Part shown: positions 19,832 through 32,643 of the stretch, piece after piece
How the letters are laid out: every line of letters begins with the position of its first letter
How positions within the stretch are numbered: the first letter of the stretch is position 1
Source: Paracoccus jeotgali
GTDB lineage: Bacteria; Pseudomonadota; Alphaproteobacteria; Rhodobacterales; Rhodobacteraceae
NCBI RefSeq assembly: GCF_002865605.1
Contig: NZ_CP025583.1
Coordinates: forward strand, 1,344,501-1,408,500
Direction: 5' to 3'
DNA length: 64,000 nucleotides
Notes under the pieces: model-generated
What the model saw: the letters and a program-made list of their open reading frames with translations, nothing else
What the model was told of the DNA's origin: nothing
The model's database searches: none
Program-made: the position numbers and the translations under genes

Positions 19832-19944
19832 GCGCGGCGGGGCGGAATGAACACAGGGACCGAGTGGCTAAATGTTTCGCTGCAATGAGCGGATAGGGCA
19901 TGGCCTTGGGGGCGCGAAGCTGCGCCATCGCTGTCGGCAAACAG

Positions 19945-19974
19945 CCAGACCCCGCGCCGCCCGGTGGGGTCTGG
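19945..19974. terminator. inverted repeat between convergent genes
   Basis: A perfect 9-bp inverted repeat, CCAGACCCC at 19945..19953 and GGGGTCTGG at 19966..19974, with a 12-nt loop. It lies between the stops of the AAA ATPase (19831) and the SRAP gene (19993). The T-richness after the stem is poor on both strands, so it is only a probable bidirectional terminator. Confidence 0.5.
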
Positions 19975-19992
19975 TTACCTTTGGATCGCTCT

Positions 19993-20634
19993 TCAGCCCG
20001 GGTCTGCCGGCTCGTCCACCTGGACCAATGCCTCATCCGGCAGCGGCCGCTGCAGCTGGCTGGCGATCTCGATGGGTGCCGACAGCCAGGTCTCCCAGTC
20101 GCGGGGATCGGTGAGGATGACCGGCATCGCCTTGGGATGCACCGCCTTCACCTCGGCGTTGGGGGCGCAGGTCAGGAAGGCATAGAGGTCATCCGTGGTT
20201 TCGCCATCCTTCACCTTGCGCAGCGAGGTCCAGTTCCGCAGTTCGATCCCGGCGAAGAACATCGACACGCCCGTCCCGGCTGCTGCGAACCACTGGTTGC
20301 CCCGGCCGCCGCCCCGCGGTTCGGCGAAAGCCGTGACCGGCACCAGGCAGCGATGCGCCGGGCCGAGCCACCGGCGCCAATGGGGGGAGGTCAGGTTGCG
20401 GACATTGGTGACGCCGGGATCGCGGGCGGTCTTCAGGACCGAGGGCGGCGACGGCATCCCCCACCGCGCCATTGCCATCTCGATCGCTTCGCCGTCATGG
20501 CGGATGATCGGGGCCGTCTGGTCTGGATAGACCTTGCCCGGTGCCAAATTGCCGAGCCGATCGGTCACGCTCAGGCCCTGGAAGAGCTGCCGCATCGCTT
20601 CCTGCGTGGTGGTCTGGCTGTAAAGATTGCACAT
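19993..20634 (-). CDS. SRAP-domain protein (abasic-site DNA-protein crosslinker)
   Basis: A 213-residue protein starting MCNLYSQTT. In this family (YedK/HMCES) Cys2 becomes the N-terminal residue and forms a covalent bond with abasic sites in single-stranded DNA. Other marks are MARWGMPSPP, NVRNLTSPHWRRWL with the conserved Asn, CLVPVTAFAEP and HPKAMPVILT with the active-site His. ATG 20634 is chosen because Cys must be residue 2; the frame is open upstream into a neighbouring small gene. SRAP genes are widespread on plasmids and islands, where they guard against damage during DNA transfer or replication. Confidence 0.85.
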   Translation of the reverse strand: MCNLYSQTTTQEAMRQLFQGLSVTDRLGNLAPGKVYPDQTAPIIRHDGEAIEMAMARWGMPSPPSVLKTARDPGVTNVRNLTSPHWRRWLGPAHRCLVPVTAFAEPRGGGRGNQWFAAAGTGVSMFFAGIELRNWTSLRKVKDGETTDDLYAFLTCAPNAEVKAVHPKAMPVILTDPRDWETWLSAPIEIASQLQRPLPDEALVQVDEPADPG

Positions 20635-20961
20635 GTTGTCTTCGTCCTCGCAGCGGCCGAACGGCAGGTAAGGGGAGGTATAGCCTGGCAGGCAGGTGCC
20701 GTCTGCCAGTTCCAGCTCGGGGAAGGCGCTCAGACAGGCACGGGCTGCCTCAGCGGCCCGGAAATAAAGCGCCACCCGGTCCCGGGTTCCACTGCGCCCG
20801 CCGCCATGCTAGGCATACTGACCGCGACCGAGTTGTGCCTCCAGCCAACGGCGCAAATCATCGCCGAGGCTGCCGAAGCCCAGCTCGGGCACGCAGATGA
20901 GCACCCGAACCGGAAAGGCCTGATCGTCCAGGCGAGACTGAGGGATGCTCCGGCGTGTCAT
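20635..20961 (-). pseudogene. small conserved-looking protein, TAG-interrupted and running into SRAP
   Basis: From ATG 20961 the frame gives MTRRSIPQSRLDDQAFPVRV, then DDLRRWLEAQLGRGQYA, and stops at TAG (20809..20811). The same frame continues sensibly as HGGGRSGTRDRVALYFR, FPELELADGT and LPFGR, and then passes without a stop into the SRAP start. A small protein of about 105 residues was probably encoded here, separate from SRAP. The TAG could derive from TGG. Its function is unknown; I have the impression of similar short proteins beside SRAP genes in related bacteria, which I cannot verify here. Confidence 0.45.
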
Positions 20962-21135
20962 GACCCGGAACGAATACAGAACCGATCGCCTGTTTCAAGA
21001 GGCTTCTGGGGAGCGCTGCCGCCTCAAGCCATATTCCTGCCATGAGGCAGCTTGGGCTTCAGCAGCATGAGCCGGCTGAGTGGCCACCTCACGCCCACGC
21101 TGCACGAGGTCACGTAGCGACGGCACCTCGCCCCT

Positions 21136-22359
21136 TCACTCCAGCGCTGCCACGACCGCGTCGAAGAACACCATCGGATCGATGGGCTCCTTCCCCTCCG
21201 GCTTCGGCTGGGCCATGTGGGTGGCGATGACGACGTTTTGGGTCGGGTTGATGTAGATGTTCTGGCCCTCGATGCCGATGGCGGCGAAAGCCTTGTCGGC
21301 GATCGAGGCTTCTGTCCATCCCGGCCACCACATCAGGCCATAGTCGATCTCGGTCCCGTCGCTCAGCGTCTGCGGCCGGCCGGCCTCTTCGGTCCAGCCC
21401 TCGGGAAGGACGCGGTTGCCGTCGATCTCGCCGCCTTCCAGGAAGAACTGCCCGAACCGCGCGAAGTCCCGCAACGTGGCGGAAAGCCCGCTGCCGCCGA
21501 TCTCGACCCCGTCCGGCGAGTCGAGCCACCAGTTGGCGTCGGCCTCCATGCCATAAGGCTTCCAGATCTTCTCAGAGAGATACTCGGCCAGGGGCTTGCC
21601 CACCGCACCGCGCACGATCTCGCCCAGCACCTGGGTTTCGCCGGTCGAGTAGGTGTGCGCCGATCCCGGCTCGCTGGCCCGCGGCAGGGCCGCCATCACC
21701 TTCATCGCCGCGCCCGGCTGTTGCGCGATCTGGGCGCGCAGCAGGTCGCGACGGTCCGACTGCGGGTCGGTGTAGGTCTCGTTCCATTGCACACCGGACG
21801 CCATCAGCAGGATGTCGTGGATGCTGACCCCGTCATAGGCGCTGCCCTTCAGGCTGGGGACGTAGTCGACGACCATGTCATCGAGACTGGCAATGTGGCC
21901 GTCCTGGACCGCGGCACCGACAAGCGTGGAGGTGATGGATTTCGCCACGGACATCGACATCCATCGGGTCTCGGGCCGGTTGCCGCGCTGGTAGGTCTCG
22001 TAGACGACCTCACCGTCCTTGAGCACGATCAGGCCGGCTACATTGTCGAGGGCGAGGAAGTCGTAAAGATCGTAGCCTTTGCCGTCGATCTCGAAGGAGA
22101 CCATCGACGGCAGGTCCTGCGGCGCCTCGGGCAGCGGGCTCGGGTTGTCGCCCGCCTCGATGACGCGCACCGGAAACAGCCGGTCGATGTTGCGGAAGGT
22201 GCTGACCGCGAGATCCGGCGTCAGATGCCCATCATAGATCTGCTCGACCGTGCCGATCGGCTCGTCGGCATGCGGATAATCCTGCGCCCTCGCCAGCCCC
22301 GGCACCGTCAGCGCCAGCAGCGACACCGCCAGCAACTGCGCTTTTCCCGATTTCAGCAT
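21136..22359 (-). CDS. serine hydrolase, class C beta-lactamase fold (NylB-like)
   Basis: A 407-residue secreted protein with a signal peptide ending LARAQ (about residue 26). The catalytic SxxK is SVAK (137-140), preceded by RWMSM as in 6-aminohexanoate-dimer hydrolases. TYSTGE near residue 240 fits the second motif. Members cleave amides or esters and include esterases and oligomer hydrolases; antibiotic hydrolysis is not implied. No partner genes are adjacent. ATG 22359 is preceded by AGGGAGAT. Confidence 0.85.
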   Translation of the reverse strand: MLKSGKAQLLAVSLLALTVPGLARAQDYPHADEPIGTVEQIYDGHLTPDLAVSTFRNIDRLFPVRVIEAGDNPSPLPEAPQDLPSMVSFEIDGKGYDLYDFLALDNVAGLIVLKDGEVVYETYQRGNRPETRWMSMSVAKSITSTLVGAAVQDGHIASLDDMVVDYVPSLKGSAYDGVSIHDILLMASGVQWNETYTDPQSDRRDLLRAQIAQQPGAAMKVMAALPRASEPGSAHTYSTGETQVLGEIVRGAVGKPLAEYLSEKIWKPYGMEADANWWLDSPDGVEIGGSGLSATLRDFARFGQFFLEGGEIDGNRVLPEGWTEEAGRPQTLSDGTEIDYGLMWWPGWTEASIADKAFAAIGIEGQNIYINPTQNVVIATHMAQPKPEGKEPIDPMVFFDAVVAALE

Positions 22360-22488
22360 TCCGATCTCCCTCTCGCATTTCCTTGCCCCGCATGGTCGCC
22401 TTCACAGCGCCGATCTGCCGCGGAGATGACTTCCAAGGCAGGATAGCCCCCGTCGGTGAAAGTCGGAATAGCTACCGGTGCGAGAATT

Positions 22489-22497
22489 GTGGATAAC
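22489..22497 (-). promoter_or_regulatory. perfect DnaA-box consensus
   Basis: On the minus strand this reads TTATCCACA, the high-affinity DnaA-box sequence. Extended to GGGTTATCCACA (22489..22500) it recurs on the plus strand at 29401..29412. It stands 29 bp left of the GTTAC repeat array, which makes a replication role worth testing. Confidence 0.5.
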
Positions 22498-22525
22498 CCG
22501 AGTTTCAATCGCATTCTTCACGGCT

Positions 22526-22768
22526 GTTACAGGCTGTTACGGGGGCTGTAACGTTTTTTACTAGTGAAATCAACGATGTTACAGGTGTTACGCCTGTTAC
22601 GCGAAAATGAGTGTATATGTGTGCCTGCATGCCTGCATGTGCGCGCGCGTATACGTGCATGTGATATATGCGCAAATATGCGTAACAGCGTAACATCTGC
22701 AAAAATTATCATCTAGATCAGTGCATTAGACTGTTACAGCTCCTGTAACACCACTGTAACGCTGTAAC
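22526..22768. repeat. array of twelve GTTAC/GTAAC motifs in near-mirror order
   Basis: GTTAC occurs at 22526, 22536, 22578, 22587, 22596 and 22733; the complement GTAAC at 22548, 22682, 22690, 22745, 22756 and 22764. Left of the middle five of six are forward; right of it five of six are reversed. On each side one forward and one reversed copy are separated by exactly 7 bp (22536..22552 and 22733..22749). Most are part of a longer TGTTAC(A/G). No gene fits the stretch. It looks like binding sites for a dimeric protein, as in an origin, a partition site or a strongly controlled promoter. Confidence 0.7.
22634..22663. repeat. 30-nt alternating purine-pyrimidine tract
   Basis: Thirty bases alternate strictly between pyrimidine and purine, including a CGCGCGCG core and TATACGTGCA. 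Such tracts can adopt left-handed DNA under negative supercoiling. It sits at the centre of the GTTAC array, between the mostly forward and mostly reversed halves. Confidence 0.6.
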
Positions 22769-22961
22769 AGCCCGAAAAGCCGTTGACAGACTAGGTCGCC
22801 GTCCCGCTGCGGCGCTTTCGGCGGTCTCTTTGGACTTCAATGAGAACCTCTCATGGGCAGGCGTGAGAGCCTCTCTCCAGCGCAAGATCCTCAAGAATAA
22901 GTTTCGCCGCCAAGATCTTGCAAAAACTTTGCGTAATACCCGAATCACCTCGGATCGGCGG

Positions 22962-23005
22962 TTGACAGTGGTTTTTAGGAATGTCAAGATGTCCACACTT
23001 TGGAC
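22962..23005 (+). promoter_or_regulatory. candidate promoter with overlapping operator
   Basis: TTGACA at 22962..22967 is followed after 17 bp by CAAGAT, a weak -10 element. Directly after it stands a perfect inverted repeat, GTCCA (22991..22995) and TGGAC (23001..23005), around the start point. It would drive the small gene at 23073. Confidence 0.4.
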
Positions 23006-23072
23006 GAGCCCGGCAGGAGTTTGCACCTCCCACCAGGCTCTGACCACAAATCGATCTGTTAGGAGACCGATC

Positions 23073-23591
23073 ATGGCTGATGCCACGCTTACCACGCATT
23101 CTTGCGTGACGAAAACCCTGCCGTTTGCGCAGACCCCCATCACCTTTCTTTTTTCGCACATGCTTGCGGCGCTGACCACGCATCTGGTGGCCGAGCGCGG
23201 GTGCCCGACTGACCTGGAGGTTGGTGAGCAGCAGGCCTGGCAGCAGGAGGCCATCCTCGCCCACGCCCGCTTGCTCGGGCTGCTGGCCGAGATCGCGCGG
23301 ACGGCGCCGGCCTCGGCCCACGAGATCCTGCTCCAGCGCATGGCGGCGGTTCTGGAGGGGCTGATCTCCTCGGAGGAGCCGGGCTGTGATGCGGAAGATG
23401 CCCTGTTGTTTTGTGTGCCTCCGTCCGGCGCGGGAATGGCGGGCGTGGCGGCACTGCCCCGTCGTGCCGCGCGCGGCATCGACCTGATGGCCGCACTGCC
23501 CTGCTACCGGCAGCGCGTCGCGCGCCTGCGGGCCGTGGCAAGCGCTGACATCGCCGCCGCGTCCGGCCCGGTGTCGGCGGAAGCCGCCTGA
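23073..23591 (+). CDS. hypothetical protein of the island
   Basis: A 172-residue protein starting at ATG 23073, with AGGAGA 7 bp upstream. The frame is open farther upstream, but that part overlaps the promoter-like sequence. It is mostly helical: a central stretch (HMLAALTTHLVAERG, QQEAILAHARLLGLLAEIAR) and a C-terminal part with RRAARGIDLMAALP. I do not recognise a family. Its place just after the GTTAC array and before a nuclease-like gene suggests a role in the same module, but that is inference. Confidence 0.6.
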   Translation: MADATLTTHSCVTKTLPFAQTPITFLFSHMLAALTTHLVAERGCPTDLEVGEQQAWQQEAILAHARLLGLLAEIARTAPASAHEILLQRMAAVLEGLISSEEPGCDAEDALLFCVPPSGAGMAGVAALPRRAARGIDLMAALPCYRQRVARLRAVASADIAAASGPVSAEAA

Positions 23592-23826
23592 TCCTCCCCT
23601 GACAGCATCGCCGATCTGCCCGGGCGCTTCCTCGGGCTGATCCCGCATGTCCCGTGCCCCGGTCTCCGCTCTGACCGGACGTCCAGTCCTGTGGGATCGG
23701 GGATCGGCACGGGACGCTGTCGCCTGTCCTGCGAGGGGGCGCCATGTTCTGCCACCATTCCAGCCGCACATCGCGGCCCGCATCTCGTCCGCGTGCCGGC
23801 GTTGCCGCACTTGGGCTCCTGCGCTG

Positions 23827-24345
23827 ATGGGCCGCCAGTTGACCCTGCCGGGCTCTCACCTGTGGGACGGCGGTCCCGACACCGGGCATGACCCGCTCAG
23901 GGCCTATCCCGAGGTCGAGCCGAACGTGATATCCAAACGCGCAAGGGAGATCGGACTGTCCGGAGAACTCCTGGTCATGTCGAAGCTGATCCGCATCGGC
24001 TTCACCGTCCTGCAGCCGCCCGATCATCTGCACCATGATCTGATGATGGTCTGGCAGAACCGTTTGCTGCGCGTGCAGGTCAAGGCCACGACCCGGCCCT
24101 ATAAGGGCGCCTATCGCTTCACCATGTCCAAGGGCTACCGCAACAACCCCCTGGGCACCCGCCCTTACGAGAGATGCGACTACGACCTCGCGGCTCTCGT
24201 CATCCTGCCCGAGGAATGCGTCTTCTTCACCGCAGAGCGCCGCGAGCGGCACTGTCTTCCTGTCAGTGTGATCGCGCAGCTGCGGGCGCATCCCACTCAC
24301 AGCCTCTTCGAAGCACTCTCGGAGCTTCGCCAGACCCCGTCGTGA
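23827..24345 (+). CDS. PD-(D/E)XK nuclease-like protein
   Basis: A 172-residue protein with the order of residues expected of a PD-(D/E)XK fold: GLSGELLVMSKLIRIGF with Glu47, HHDLM with Asp71, then LRVQVKATT with a Q-x-K pair (84-86), and DYDLAALVIL after it. Stand-alone proteins of this type include intron-associated and resolvase-like endonucleases. ATG 23827 is used because the upstream open part is chance-like. No methylase or specificity gene is adjacent, so this is not evidently a restriction enzyme. It lies just left of the ATCAATGCATC array. Confidence 0.6.
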   Translation: MGRQLTLPGSHLWDGGPDTGHDPLRAYPEVEPNVISKRAREIGLSGELLVMSKLIRIGFTVLQPPDHLHHDLMMVWQNRLLRVQVKATTRPYKGAYRFTMSKGYRNNPLGTRPYERCDYDLAALVILPEECVFFTAERRERHCLPVSVIAQLRAHPTHSLFEALSELRQTPS

Positions 24346-29596: not shown

Positions 29597-29890
29597 ATGA
29601 CGAAGCAGACGACGGCTGCGGCCGATCTCTGCCTGATGGTGAAGCGCGATGTCTGCAAGGTCTTCGCGGTCAGCGAGGCGACGATCGACCGCTGGCTGCG
29701 GTCGGACCCGGACTTCCCGCAGCCGCGCAGGCTCGGGCCGAATTCCATCAGGTGGATCAAGAGCGAGGTGATGGCCTACATGTTGAGCCTGCCCCGCGTC
29801 GCCTATGACGACCATGCCTTCGATCCGAACGCGGCCGAGGCGGCGGATGAGGACGCAGGGGCTGGCCTCTGCGGCAGTGGGAACCACTAG
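29597..29890 (+). CDS. AlpA-like helix-turn-helix regulator
   Basis: A 97-residue protein. Residues 13-65 are a winged helix-turn-helix of the AlpA/MerR-like type (VSEATIDRWLRSDPDFPQPRRLG, written in part; then IRWIKSEVMAYM). Such proteins act as excision or transfer regulators on prophages and integrative elements. ATG 29597 follows GAAAGGGAC. The next gene starts 3 bp after its stop, so it leads the mobilisation operon. The C-terminal tail is acidic and unlike typical AlpA. Confidence 0.75.
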   Translation: MTKQTTAAADLCLMVKRDVCKVFAVSEATIDRWLRSDPDFPQPRRLGPNSIRWIKSEVMAYMLSLPRVAYDDHAFDPNAAEAADEDAGAGLCGSGNH

Positions 29891-29892
29891 CC

Positions 29893-30201
29893 ATGAAGAT
29901 GGAGCGTTTCGACGTCCGCCTGTCGGCGGAGGATGCCGCGCGCGTCGGCGCCGACATGCGCCGCCGCGGCATCACCAGCAAGGCCGAGCAGCTGCGCGAC
30001 AGCTTGCGCGGGGGCTGGGCCGAGATGGCCGACGGCATCGCCACCGGCATCGGTGAACTTGTCCTGCTGCTGAACGACCTCGTGATCCTCGTCGATGACA
30101 CCGCCGCAGTCGCGCCGGAGACGCTGGCGGCACTGATCGACCAGGTTATGAAGATGCTGCGCGCACTGCTGAGGATGATCAACGAAAGGGGGCGCGCATG
30201 A
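29893..30201 (+). CDS. small RHH-like protein, probable mobilisation accessory
   Basis: A 102-residue protein. Its start, MKMERFDVRLSAEDAARV, then RRGITSKAEQLRDSLR, fits a ribbon-helix-helix: one strand and two helices. The rest is a long hydrophobic helical region (IGELVLLLNDLVIL and MKMLRALLRMI). It lies between the AlpA-like gene and the relaxase, overlapping the latter by 4 bp (ATGA). Relaxases commonly have such a DNA-binding partner (MobC-like) that helps them find oriT; that role is inferred from position. Confidence 0.6.
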   Translation: MKMERFDVRLSAEDAARVGADMRRRGITSKAEQLRDSLRGGWAEMADGIATGIGELVLLLNDLVILVDDTAAVAPETLAALIDQVMKMLRALLRMINERGRA

Positions 30202-32321
30202 CGCGCCCCTTTCTGTCCTTCATGTCGGACCTCGAGGCGATCCTGCGCTACCTGGCGCGGTTGCGGAGCCTCGACGCATCCCCACCTCAGGCCGATCTTG
30301 TTGCCGGCACGGTCCCCTGGCTCGGGCTGCGGCCCACCATGTCCTTCATCCGGACGCTGCAGAAGCCGGCCGACGTGAAGAAGAACCTGATCCTCATCAC
30401 CGTCTCGCTGCCCGACGGCCGGACGCTGCCGCGCCGGCAGTGGCGGCAGGCGCTGAAGACGGTCTTCCTCAGCCTCGGCCTGCCAGAGCATCAGGTTCCG
30501 TGGCTGGCCTTCCGCCACCACGACAGCCGCTGCGAGCACGTCCACATCATGGCCATTGCCATGACCTTCGCCGGCCGACGCCTGCCTCTGACCGCACTCA
30601 AGCAGCGATGCGACGCCGCCGATCTCTGGCTCTGCCGCGATCTCGGGATCGTGCCGCCGGATTATCACCTTGCGGGAATGGGGCCACGGATGGGCATCTT
30701 CGTGCCCGCGCGCCGCATCGCCGCCTCGGATGCCCTGGAAAAGGACAGGTTCCGCAAGACCGCCGCAGAGATGACGGCGCAGCGCGCCGCCGCGACCGCC
30801 CTCAATGCCCCCATTGCGAAGGCAGTCCGCGAGGTGCTGCTGACCTGCCAGCCGGAGAACCCGGAGAGCCTGGCCGCCGCGCTTCGGCAGCGCGATCCGG
30901 CCACCACAGTTACCCGCGAGCCGGTGCCAGGCCAGCCGGATGACTGGATCTTCGCCCAAGCCGGTCACCGCATCAAGGGTTGGCAGTTGAGCCCGGAGCT
31001 CATCGACAGCCCGATGCAGCAGCGCTTCATCCGGGCCGGCCAGCTGCGCCGCCTGCGCAAGGTCCTGGACCTGCACCGTCTGCTGGTCGCGCTCGAGACT
31101 GGCCGCACCTCCCTCACCACAACCTGCAAGGAGATGATTCATGGCAAAAGCACCCCGGACCTCGACCGCTGGCGAGACGGAGCGCAGACCGCAGATGACG
31201 CCGAACGGCAGCCCGGCACCCGACACGGCGATCCCCAGCACCGCGACGCTCGCCCAGACCCGGGCGCTGCAGCTGCTCGACCGGTTGATCGACCAGCAAC
31301 TGGAGACCCGGGAGATCTCGTCCGAGACCCTCGCGACATTGCGGCCGCTGACGTCCCTGTTGGATCTGCTGGCGCGCCCGCAGGACCAGTCGACGGAACT
31401 GGGCCGGCAGCTGGCCGAGTCGCTGAGCCAGCTGGCCTTCAGCGCGAGCGAGACCGCGCATCAGGTGAAGGACCTGCGCGCGGAGATCAGGAGCATGACG
31501 GCCGTGCTGGACGGGCTGACAAAGGCCGTCACCCAGCTGCAGGATGGGCAGAAGAAATTGGCCGCCAAGCTGGGCCGCCTGGACCAGAAGCTGGACCAGC
31601 TCACCCGCGACCTGTTCGAGGACCCGCCAGCCTCGGACAACAGCTGAGCCAAGTCCGTGCGGTGCTGCGCCGGACCGGCCTGCAGGCGCGGCCGCTCCTG
31701 CGCCGCCGCGACCGCAGCATCGCTGTCCGCTTCGCCGACGGCAGCGCCGCGCGGGTGAGGACGGATGAGGTCATTATCGAGCAGGCAGCAGCTGCCCAGA
31801 GTGGCATGGCCCGTCTGTTTGCGAAGGTGTGGGCCAAGATCTGCAACTGGCTCGACAACACCGATGGCAGCGCCTGGCCGTTCCCGGCGCCGCAGCGCCC
31901 CGGCATGCCGCTGGCGGCGACTAGGGCCGCCCTGCGCCGACAGATTGCCGCGCGCCTCCGGAAGGCGGAGCTGATCTGTCTTCACGATAAAACGGAACAT
32001 CGCCAAGCGATGCAGAACATGCTGCGCGCGGAGTTCGGCCTGCCAGAGCCGCTTGCCCGCAAGGCGCCGCAACAGTCGCGTGTTCTCGTTCTCACGCCGC
32101 ACTGCGTGGCCGATCTTGCCAGCGAGCCGGTGTGGTATCTGGACAGGCTGATGGCCATGCAGGCTGCGCATCCGGATCTGGGTGTGATCACGCTTGCGCC
32201 CGATCCCGGGGCGCCGCAGTTCAGCAACATCGCGGGTCTCGTGGAAGAGATCGAGGCGGCCGGACGGCATGCGGAGGCGGAGCCAGAAGATCCGGAGGAG
32301 GCACCGGCACCAAATTGGTAG
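30198..32321 (+). CDS. relaxase / mobilisation nuclease, unusual long frame
   Basis: The 707-codon frame has three parts. Residues 1-315 are a relaxase: LILITVSLPDG, then HHDSRCEHVHIM with the His cluster (H107, H108, H114, H116) that binds metal at the oriT nick site. Residues 316-480 are rich in R, P, A, D and G and overlap a convincing separate gene in another frame (31141..31647), so they may be chance translation. Residues 485-707 again look like protein (IAVRFADGSAARV, KVWAKICNWLDN, APDPGAPQFSNIAGL). It may be one protein, or a relaxase that lost its stop plus a third gene from GTG 31662. Confidence 0.6.
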   Translation: MTRPFLSFMSDLEAILRYLARLRSLDASPPQADLVAGTVPWLGLRPTMSFIRTLQKPADVKKNLILITVSLPDGRTLPRRQWRQALKTVFLSLGLPEHQVPWLAFRHHDSRCEHVHIMAIAMTFAGRRLPLTALKQRCDAADLWLCRDLGIVPPDYHLAGMGPRMGIFVPARRIAASDALEKDRFRKTAAEMTAQRAAATALNAPIAKAVREVLLTCQPENPESLAAALRQRDPATTVTREPVPGQPDDWIFAQAGHRIKGWQLSPELIDSPMQQRFIRAGQLRRLRKVLDLHRLLVALETGRTSLTTTCKEMIHGKSTPDLDRWRDGAQTADDAERQPGTRHGDPQHRDARPDPGAAAARPVDRPATGDPGDLVRDPRDIAAADVPVGSAGAPAGPVDGTGPAAGRVAEPAGLQRERDRASGEGPARGDQEHDGRAGRADKGRHPAAGWAEEIGRQAGPPGPEAGPAHPRPVRGPASLGQQLSQVRAVLRRTGLQARPLLRRRDRSIAVRFADGSAARVRTDEVIIEQAAAAQSGMARLFAKVWAKICNWLDNTDGSAWPFPAPQRPGMPLAATRAALRRQIAARLRKAELICLHDKTEHRQAMQNMLRAEFGLPEPLARKAPQQSRVLVLTPHCVADLASEPVWYLDRLMAMQAAHPDLGVITLAPDPGAPQFSNIAGLVEEIEAAGRHAEAEPEDPEEAPAPNW
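31141..31647 (+). CDS. coiled-coil protein nested in the relaxase frame
   Basis: A 168-residue protein in another frame from the relaxase. ATG 31141 is preceded by AAGGAG at 31128..31133, the best ribosome binding site of the whole module. It is Thr/Pro-rich for 35 residues, then helical with heptad-like repeats (LQLLDRLIDQQLETREI, LAESLSQLAFSASETAHQV and LGRLDQKLDQLTRDLF). The composition is far more protein-like than that of the overlapping relaxase frame. A relaxosome or coupling accessory (MobB-like) is plausible from position; no family is recognised. Confidence 0.6.
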   Translation: MAKAPRTSTAGETERRPQMTPNGSPAPDTAIPSTATLAQTRALQLLDRLIDQQLETREISSETLATLRPLTSLLDLLARPQDQSTELGRQLAESLSQLAFSASETAHQVKDLRAEIRSMTAVLDGLTKAVTQLQDGQKKLAAKLGRLDQKLDQLTRDLFEDPPASDNS

Positions 32322-32553: not shown

Positions 32554-32643
32554 TGGCGGACGGTGAGGGATTCGAACCCTCGAGACGGTTCCCCGCCTAC
32601 ACACTTTCCAGGCGTGCGCCTTCGACCACTCGGCCAACCGTCC
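32554..32643 (-). tRNA. tRNA-Ser, anticodon GGA
   Basis: Read on the minus strand: acceptor GGACGGT pairs with ACCGTCC, the D arm has GGCCGAGTGGTC, the anticodon loop is CTGGAAA with anticodon GGA, and a long variable arm and GGTTCGAATCC T-loop follow. Length is 90 nt with encoded CCA. The long variable arm is proper for serine. Its 3' end faces the accessory half and the mobilisation genes. tRNA 3' ends are common integration sites, so this is the probable attachment site of the island; no second copy of the 3' end is seen in the window. Confidence 0.95.

Follow-up and report, generated by a model that had tools for sequence, protein, structure and literature searches.

A candidate orphan replication origin of phage or satellite type in a relaxase-bearing island of Paracoccus jeotgali

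What is the role of the dense cluster of short repeats that occupies the gap between two gene starts, that of a serine-hydrolase-like gene (22359) and that of the gene at 23073, in Paracoccus jeotgali? The window, here and below, is the whole stretch of 64,000 nucleotides that was analysed, and positions without an accession or locus name refer to it. An earlier note on this DNA had counted twelve GTTAC/GTAAC motifs in 243 bp, and our recount found the same twelve (22526-22768), divided into two sets of six. The left iteron set (22526-22600) has sites starting at 22526, 22536, 22548 (minus), 22578, 22587 and 22596, with spacings of 10, 12, 30, 9 and 9 bp, and the right set (22682-22768) has sites starting at 22682 (minus), 22690 (minus), 22733, 22745 (minus), 22756 (minus) and 22764 (minus), with spacings of 8, 43, 12, 11 and 8 bp. 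The central tract separating them (22601-22681), the candidate melting region, carries a strictly alternating purine-pyrimidine run of 30 nt (22634-22663), the only such run of at least 20 nt in the window. The GC content of this tract is 49%, compared to 28% and 32% in AT-rich segments within the left set (22553-22577) and the right set (22695-22732), and about 61-66% in the surroundings; the central tract is not clearly AT-rich. A DnaA box with perfect consensus (22488-22496, minus strand; TTATCCACA on the minus strand, equal to TGTGGATAA) stands on the left, 29 bp from the first iteron, and each half of the array holds one converging pair (22536/22548 and 22733/22745) with exactly 7 bp between its members. 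The run, the box and the pairs are all as the earlier note had given them. Open reading frames of at least 80 aa that reach into the gap (21217-22446, plus; 22718-23479, minus; 22830-23591, plus; 22851-23810, minus) look in our judgement like shadows or extensions of the flanking genes, and the array appears to be free of genes, as had been claimed.

The two motif forms proved to be a single one. A pyrimidine before and a purine after the GTWAC core were observed at 12 of 12 window sites, and at 12 other Paracoccus array loci the 5' side fits in 125 of 126 sites and the 3' side in 122 of 126. GTTAC and GTAAC are therefore one odd palindrome, YGTWACR, with A or T at its centre, so that "forward" and "reversed" describe only the identity of the central base. 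The near-mirror order reported earlier (five of the six left sites forward, five of the six right sites reversed) stands as a count but not as an orientation of the sites. Such a palindrome may mean that the reader is symmetric, or that a ring helicase reads half-sites. Across the whole window GTTAC is only mildly in excess (28 observed, 20 expected), and the feature that departs from chance is the clustering of the sites rather than their total. None of 1073 control stretches of 280 bp, taken from 17 array-free loci, held more than two GTWAC, compared to 12 here, and of the 7 copies of CTGTWACAG in the 3.3-Mb genome, 3 are in the array. Clusters of this density are thus not common, which answers a check that the earlier note had proposed.

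To which neighbour the array belongs could be judged from related genomes. In other Paracoccus, 10 loci with a related serine hydrolase (68-87% identity) were free of such an array, while it is present beside some relatives of the 23073 product, which argues that it travels with the island side; the suggestion of a site of the island, with the 23073 gene as the place to look, was borne out to that extent, and conservation near the neighbours holds on one side only. The gene in question (23073-23591, plus strand; 172 aa), called c0 here, is the first of a c0-c1-c2 module, of which c1 and c2 are not beside it in the window. In P. aestuarii a 1.3-kb segment with the array and c0 occurs both on the chromosome and on plasmid p296221 (NZ_CP067170.1), with the two copies 92.7% identical, and the chromosomal copy has a tRNA-Ser, a phaC region and a relaxase-like stretch in common with the window. 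Read in the same direction, the site spacings are 10, 12, 30, 9, 9, 86, 8, 43, 12 in the window and 9, 12, 30, 8, 9, 82, 8, 54, 11 in the P. aestuarii chromosome, so the spacing is kept, as the earlier note had asked to see, despite letters between the iterons that mostly differ. Within NZ_CP067170.1 21176-31167, the plasmid copy adjoins a type I-E CRISPR-Cas operon.

A sequence-only model built from three arrays, with filters that lose weak arrays, matched in 17 of 125 Paracoccus genomes at E<=0.05, and 14 loci in 12 genomes scored below 1e-10 (strong arrays). The 28 rows returned were these 14, one second-strand match of the window array, and 13 weaker rows that we did not count, some of them second-strand and including G018, G076:C30 and G028:C70. 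The strong arrays contain 9-13 sites in 227-285 bp with a largest gap of 72-108 bp, and their alternating run is 24-69 nt long in 10 of the 14 and 14-22 nt in the other four. An 8-base box of DnaA type (TGTGGATA/TATCCACA) was found up to about 60 bp outside the array in seven of the 14, including the window. In a family sample of 295 genomes, five genomes besides the window's own matched at 1e-4, three of them with pieces of the c0-c1-c2 module within 6 kb of the array. A DNA similarity search with the array gave no plasmid match and only two chance-level matches in phages; relatives were reached through the sequence model and a triplet pattern (below) only. With sites defined in one reference array, that of the P. 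aestuarii chromosome, iterons were better conserved than spacers in G092 (57/63, 0.90, vs 130/199, 0.65), G028 (59/63, 0.94, vs 110/186, 0.59) and G022 (58/63, 0.92, vs 109/202, 0.54), and in two close copies (63/63 vs 193/202, 1.00/0.96; 62/63 vs 186/202, 0.98/0.92), and thus appear to be under selection. Loci with other iteron words were also observed: GTGACCC iterons on the same plan beside Prim-Pol/DUF5906, an integrase and tRNA-Leu (G018), GTTCC/GTTACC-like words adjoining a diverged c0-c1-c2 (G145), and GGTTACG-like iterons adjoining VapE, a helix-turn-helix gene and an integrase (G076:C30). These variants suggest, on their sequences, a class with exchangeable iterons. At one Paracoccus locus a phage primase stands beside a half-array.

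The same survey bears on a partition, nucleoid-organising or chromosome-terminus site. The parS-like sites, which we take to mark oriC, are 1.3 Mb from the array, and the array is therefore not in a chromosomal oriC context. By our arithmetic this distance is 42% of the chromosome in the window's genome, 35% in G064 and 40% in G092, as might be expected for a terminus-associated site, but the G080 array lies only 6% from parS, one copy is on a plasmid and such arrays are found in viral contigs. A terminus role was dropped because of G080 and the plasmid copy, and with the viral copies added the whole reading is close to refuted and very improbable indeed. Among the functions first proposed for the site the origin is the best supported, although of a phage or satellite kind with no initiator gene adjoining it, and nothing was found for a partition site or a silencing switch.

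Support for a phage or satellite kind came from viral contigs. Searching these with three sites spaced 9 and 8 bp, a pattern that the window's own triplet (9, 9) does not match, returned 118 stretches, compared to about three expected by our own estimate. Eighty of these were read; they were not made non-redundant and include many near-copies, and their triplet spacing follows from the pattern. The 80 loci hold 4-17 GTWAC in the densest 280 bp, and several have mirrored spacing, e.g. L194 (20, 12, 31, 8, 9, [56], 9, 8, 31, 12, 21). In 29 of the 80 the array has a gene of at least 350 aa no more than 350 bp away, and 24 of these genes have their 3' end toward it; 23 of the 24 belong to six primase-helicase clusters, and one (L193) has primase/helicase PHROG matches. 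The five adjoining long genes with their 5' end toward the array belong to none of the six clusters. Cluster members that were tested match VapE, DUF5906/D5_N, Prim-Pol+AAA, DUF927+HTH_56 or a primase zinc ribbon, with the exception of the L194 gene, for which no Pfam family match was found. The array thus stands 3' of primase-helicases in many phages. Fifty-one viral loci had no long gene within 350 bp: in 28 (L151, L169, L205 and 25 similar loci) the GTWAC array adjoins a terminase-small-subunit-like gene instead of a primase, a possible link of the origin with the start of packaging, and 23 had neither.

Named phages gave a similar picture. Searches with primases of array-bearing contigs supplied the 40 listed rows (657 records) from which ten were taken, and in all ten the primase-helicase gene is followed within about 400 bp by a repeated word, which is GTWAC in four phages and another word in six. 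Alternating CGCGCG-type tracts were observed, by our reading, in the middle of the arrays of Halomonas H4907, Pseudomonas Turba and PG1, whose words are not GTWAC. Taking the window site together with these arrays, we consider 22488-22768 very likely, by its architecture, to be an origin of phage or satellite type.

In the window the expected partner gene was not found. No primase-helicase was observed beside the array using Pfam on the scanned genes and locally built primase-helicase profiles, no plasmid rep gene was among the scanned neighbours, and a genome-wide search for VapE and DUF5906 found neither family. This genome has a DUF927 gene on contig C2 and a broken piece of one on the chromosome. 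On C2 (149 kb; region G000:C2 72494-76181) about 0.4 kb separates the end of the DUF927 gene from the c0-c1 pair that follows it, with a small repressor-like reading frame, by our reading, between DUF927 and c0; on Antarctobacter plasmid pSMS3-1 the DUF927 gene comes after c0-c1-c2 instead. DUF927 was within about 6 kb of c0 or c1 in four of seven genomes with a match (G000 contig C2, G022, G025, G074), and near strong arrays it was seen 2.6 kb away in G022 and about 11 kb away in G074:C77; local primase-helicase profiles found no other near the Paracoccus strong arrays. DUF927 was rejected as the partner of the array, with none of 10 Paracoccus DUF927 loci having such an array after the gene. 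One of the ten has five GTWAC and one (G025:C33) a GTTCCCC repeat after the gene, perhaps the same origin class with a different iteron. Elsewhere in Paracoccus, six DUF5906 genes are each followed by their own repeats, which stand out at some of these genes and are weak at the rest, and after an intact VapE gene (L320) no clear iterons were found.

Because no primase-helicase was found beside the array, we propose firing in trans. Our preferred reading, probable on the strength of the sequence comparisons, is an orphan origin of the SaPI/PICI type in a relaxase-bearing island, fired in trans by the initiator of another element. A self-loading primase-helicase would open the array as an origin, with helicase rings assembling on both iteron sets and melting the tract between them, possibly helped by DnaA at the adjoining box. 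The initiator would be supplied by an incoming or co-resident phage, satellite or related island, and the relaxase would serve transfer. Precedents for such steps are described in the parts available of two papers: E. coli PICIs have two short-iteron sets around a possible melting region, 3' of rep (PMC6092414); SaPIs have an origin directly downstream of the helicase gene, with iterons recognised by the C-terminal domain and two hexamers apparently binding (PMC7581432); and in SCCmec the iterons are likewise recognised by the C-terminal domain of the Cch2 helicase, for which two-hexamer loading has been proposed (PMC7581432).

The island around the array includes an AlpA-like regulator (29597-29890, plus strand; PF05930, 3.2e-8), a small protein (29893-30201, plus) in the place of a NikA/MobC-like mobilization protein, and a MobA/VirD2-like relaxase (30198-32321, plus; PF03432, 3e-6), with tRNA-Ser(GGA) (32554-32643, minus) at the right edge of the compared region and also near the arrays of L048 and L114. 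The small protein itself has no Pfam match and clusters with L048:5437-5745, which has a NikA-like match. Among the scanned window genes no integrase was found, and no duplicated tRNA end was seen; as for the features of a whole PICI, AlpA is present, while integrase, pri-rep and attachment-site duplication were not found among the scanned genes. Right after c0 is a PD-(D/E)XK endonuclease-like gene (23827-24345; PF11645, found with the reading frame 23647-24345) and behind it an ABC transporter operon, both standing where relatives carry c1 and c2. On the other side an SRAP (SOS response associated peptidase) gene was observed (19993-20775, minus); synteny through the reading frame 19900-21045 (plus) was misleading, as this frame overlaps the SRAP gene on the other strand and its homologs often contain stops. 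The array of G064 has to its left a DNA_pol3_alpha error-prone polymerase and an ImuB-like gene (L048:14157-19241), with clustered relatives in G076 (L109:12617-14819) followed by SRAP and an Hsp70-like gene; a third gene beside the polymerase/ImuB-like pair occupies what is presumably the imuA position.

Such an island could also hold what is left of an integrated satellite or phage origin, in decay and with no present function. The lack of any replicase or integrase found beside the array is consistent with decay, as are the PD-(D/E)XK and ABC-transporter genes in the place of c1 and c2, but YGTWACR still fits all 12 iterons and related arrays keep their iterons better than their spacers. 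Because of this iteron conservation we regard a relic as improbable.

Genes of the fetched loci come from our own ORF callers, and the neighbour counts that follow are therefore approximate. A c0 gene lies no more than 6.4 kb from the array in 10 of the 14 strong arrays. The remaining four are G127, with c2 at 1.0 kb, G028, whose contig is 7.7 kb long, G025, where the contig ends 0.8 kb away, and G080, with no module beyond a marginal c2 match (E 3.4e-4). Relaxases were found near the arrays of the window, G022, G028, G076 and G092 (the last three in one cluster, c8), with weaker evidence in G064 (similarity) and G033, where a 766-aa gene 0.5 kb from the array (L113:10619-12919) has an MbeA-type relaxase match under the NCBIfam cut-off and no Pfam or PHROG name. 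The array is thus mostly found in islands with the c0-c1-c2 module, commonly together with a relaxase. No Pfam, PHROG, PADLOC or NCBIfam match was found for c0, which usually heads the module, followed by a GIY-YIG-like nuclease (c1) and an AAA-M41 protease (c2). The c1 product has conserved Cys pairs and, by our reading, a GIY-YIG-like C-terminus, as well as a PHROG endonuclease match, and some relatives are named "GIY-YIG nuclease family protein" in plasmid records. The c2 product is an AAA ATPase with a peptidase M41 domain; its c2-like matches in phages (35 records) are partial and FtsH-like and do not represent the module.

One could then ask whether c0, c1 or c2 is itself the initiator, with the array as its origin or operator. 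In two cases c0 stays with the array where c1-c2 do not adjoin it, and, as in the window, c0 is preceded by the array at a distance of 0.3-0.6 kb in G076, G092, G022 and both the chromosome and the plasmid of G064. Against this, the array is missing from other lineages of the module, c0 could be assigned to no known family, and a viral scan that used one peptide pattern found c1 in a single contig only. In addition, a CopG-like gene precedes c0 at four plasmid loci, though the array-bearing G022 has one too. We consider an initiator from within the module quite unlikely.

The nuclease-protease module makes a different idea attractive, in which the array would be the bait of an antiphage module: an origin mimic by which phage initiators are titrated or sensed, with the c1 nuclease and c2 protease acting on them or on phage origins. 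The proximity of c0 to 10 of the 14 strong arrays and of c2 to an eleventh fits this idea, and array and c0 are kept together where c1-c2 are lacking, in the window and on the P. aestuarii plasmid. In a c1 tree of 27 proteins, which does not cover every c1 locus and leaves out non-Paracoccus pieces, seven of eight GTWAC-array-linked rows fall in one clade of eight (support 100/100). The ATPase part of c2 resembles the antiphage ATPase IetA/IteA, and phage ICP1, in the portion available of PMC8263062, encodes a nuclease directed at origins that carries a T5orf172 domain, of the GIY-YIG superfamily. Most c0-c1-c2 loci are nevertheless free of arrays: c1 matches occur in 41 of 125 Paracoccus genomes, and 14 other Paracoccus c0 loci have no such array within the 11-20 kb fetched. 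The window has neither c1 nor c2 beside c0, the array-linked L115 (G074) and the G145 variant fall outside the c1 clade in a tree for which the program warns of long branches meeting, and c2 scores 91.6 against IteA, far under the NCBI cut-off of 510. A bait or trap seems unlikely on this evidence. A broader form, in which a phage origin faithfully copied in bacterial islands serves, together with c0-c1-c2, as a trap or a parasitic origin, and initiators that read YGTWACR are captured, sensed or exploited, is doubtful yet conceivable.

With an orphan origin fired in trans as the preferred reading, the type of origin is already known and the setting is new. The YGTWACR iteron turns up in a common spacing scheme (8-9, 11-12 and 30-31 bp around a central tract) next to primase-helicases of several families, in viral contigs whose GC content spans 28-66%, and such origins can therefore be recognised by sequence alone. 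In the parts of the literature available to us no GTTAC/GTWAC iteron origin plan was found, and nothing closer than PMC6092414, PMC7581432, PMC8263062 and PMC7145576. New as far as this literature goes are the shared GTWAC plan across viral contigs of that GC range, the alternating central tract that most Paracoccus copies share with some GC-rich phages, and the orphan copies of the array in relaxase-bearing Paracoccus islands. A replicase-less copy, apparently under selection next to a nuclease-protease module, raises the question of whether the island borrows the replication machinery of phages or traps it; the site may be used by the enzymes of visiting phages or be a trap for them.

Several known systems share parts of this plan. 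Mobilizable integrative elements resemble the window in having a relaxase and a small mobilization-type protein near tRNA-Ser, and AlpA, and differ in the integrase and the tRNA-end duplication, neither found in the window. The PLE of Vibrio cholerae also has an island-borne iteron origin, but with a RepA_N initiator and iterons of about 30 bp, and the ICP1 nuclease Odn, which has been linked to origin recognition, is of the GIY-YIG superfamily like c1 (PMC8263062, PMC7145576, from the portions available). Odn differs from c1 in being encoded by a phage and in having a RepA-like N-terminus; c1 is found in islands and plasmids of bacteria and carries conserved Cys pairs. The putative origin of SCCmec Cch2 has short 5-base iterons downstream of the helicase gene (PMC7581432, in the part available); it has only three, AAGTG, and binding of Cch2 has been demonstrated, whereas the window array is known from its sequence. 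Nitratiruptor phage NrS-1 and THSA-485A are closer in their iterons, with 10 and 11 GTWAC in 280 bp just after the primase gene, although in such phages the putative origin is beside the replicase in the phage genome and the bases flanking the GTWAC core differ in some. The SaPI/PICI origin (PMC6092414, PMC7581432, as far as the available parts go) adjoins the 3' end of a primase-helicase gene, in common with the arrays of the phages, G018 and G076:C30, while the window array has no adjoining rep and is set apart by its YGTWACR iteron, its alternating central tract at 49% GC and its DnaA box. In both the window and the SaPI/PICI origin, two sets of short iterons flank a possible melting region.
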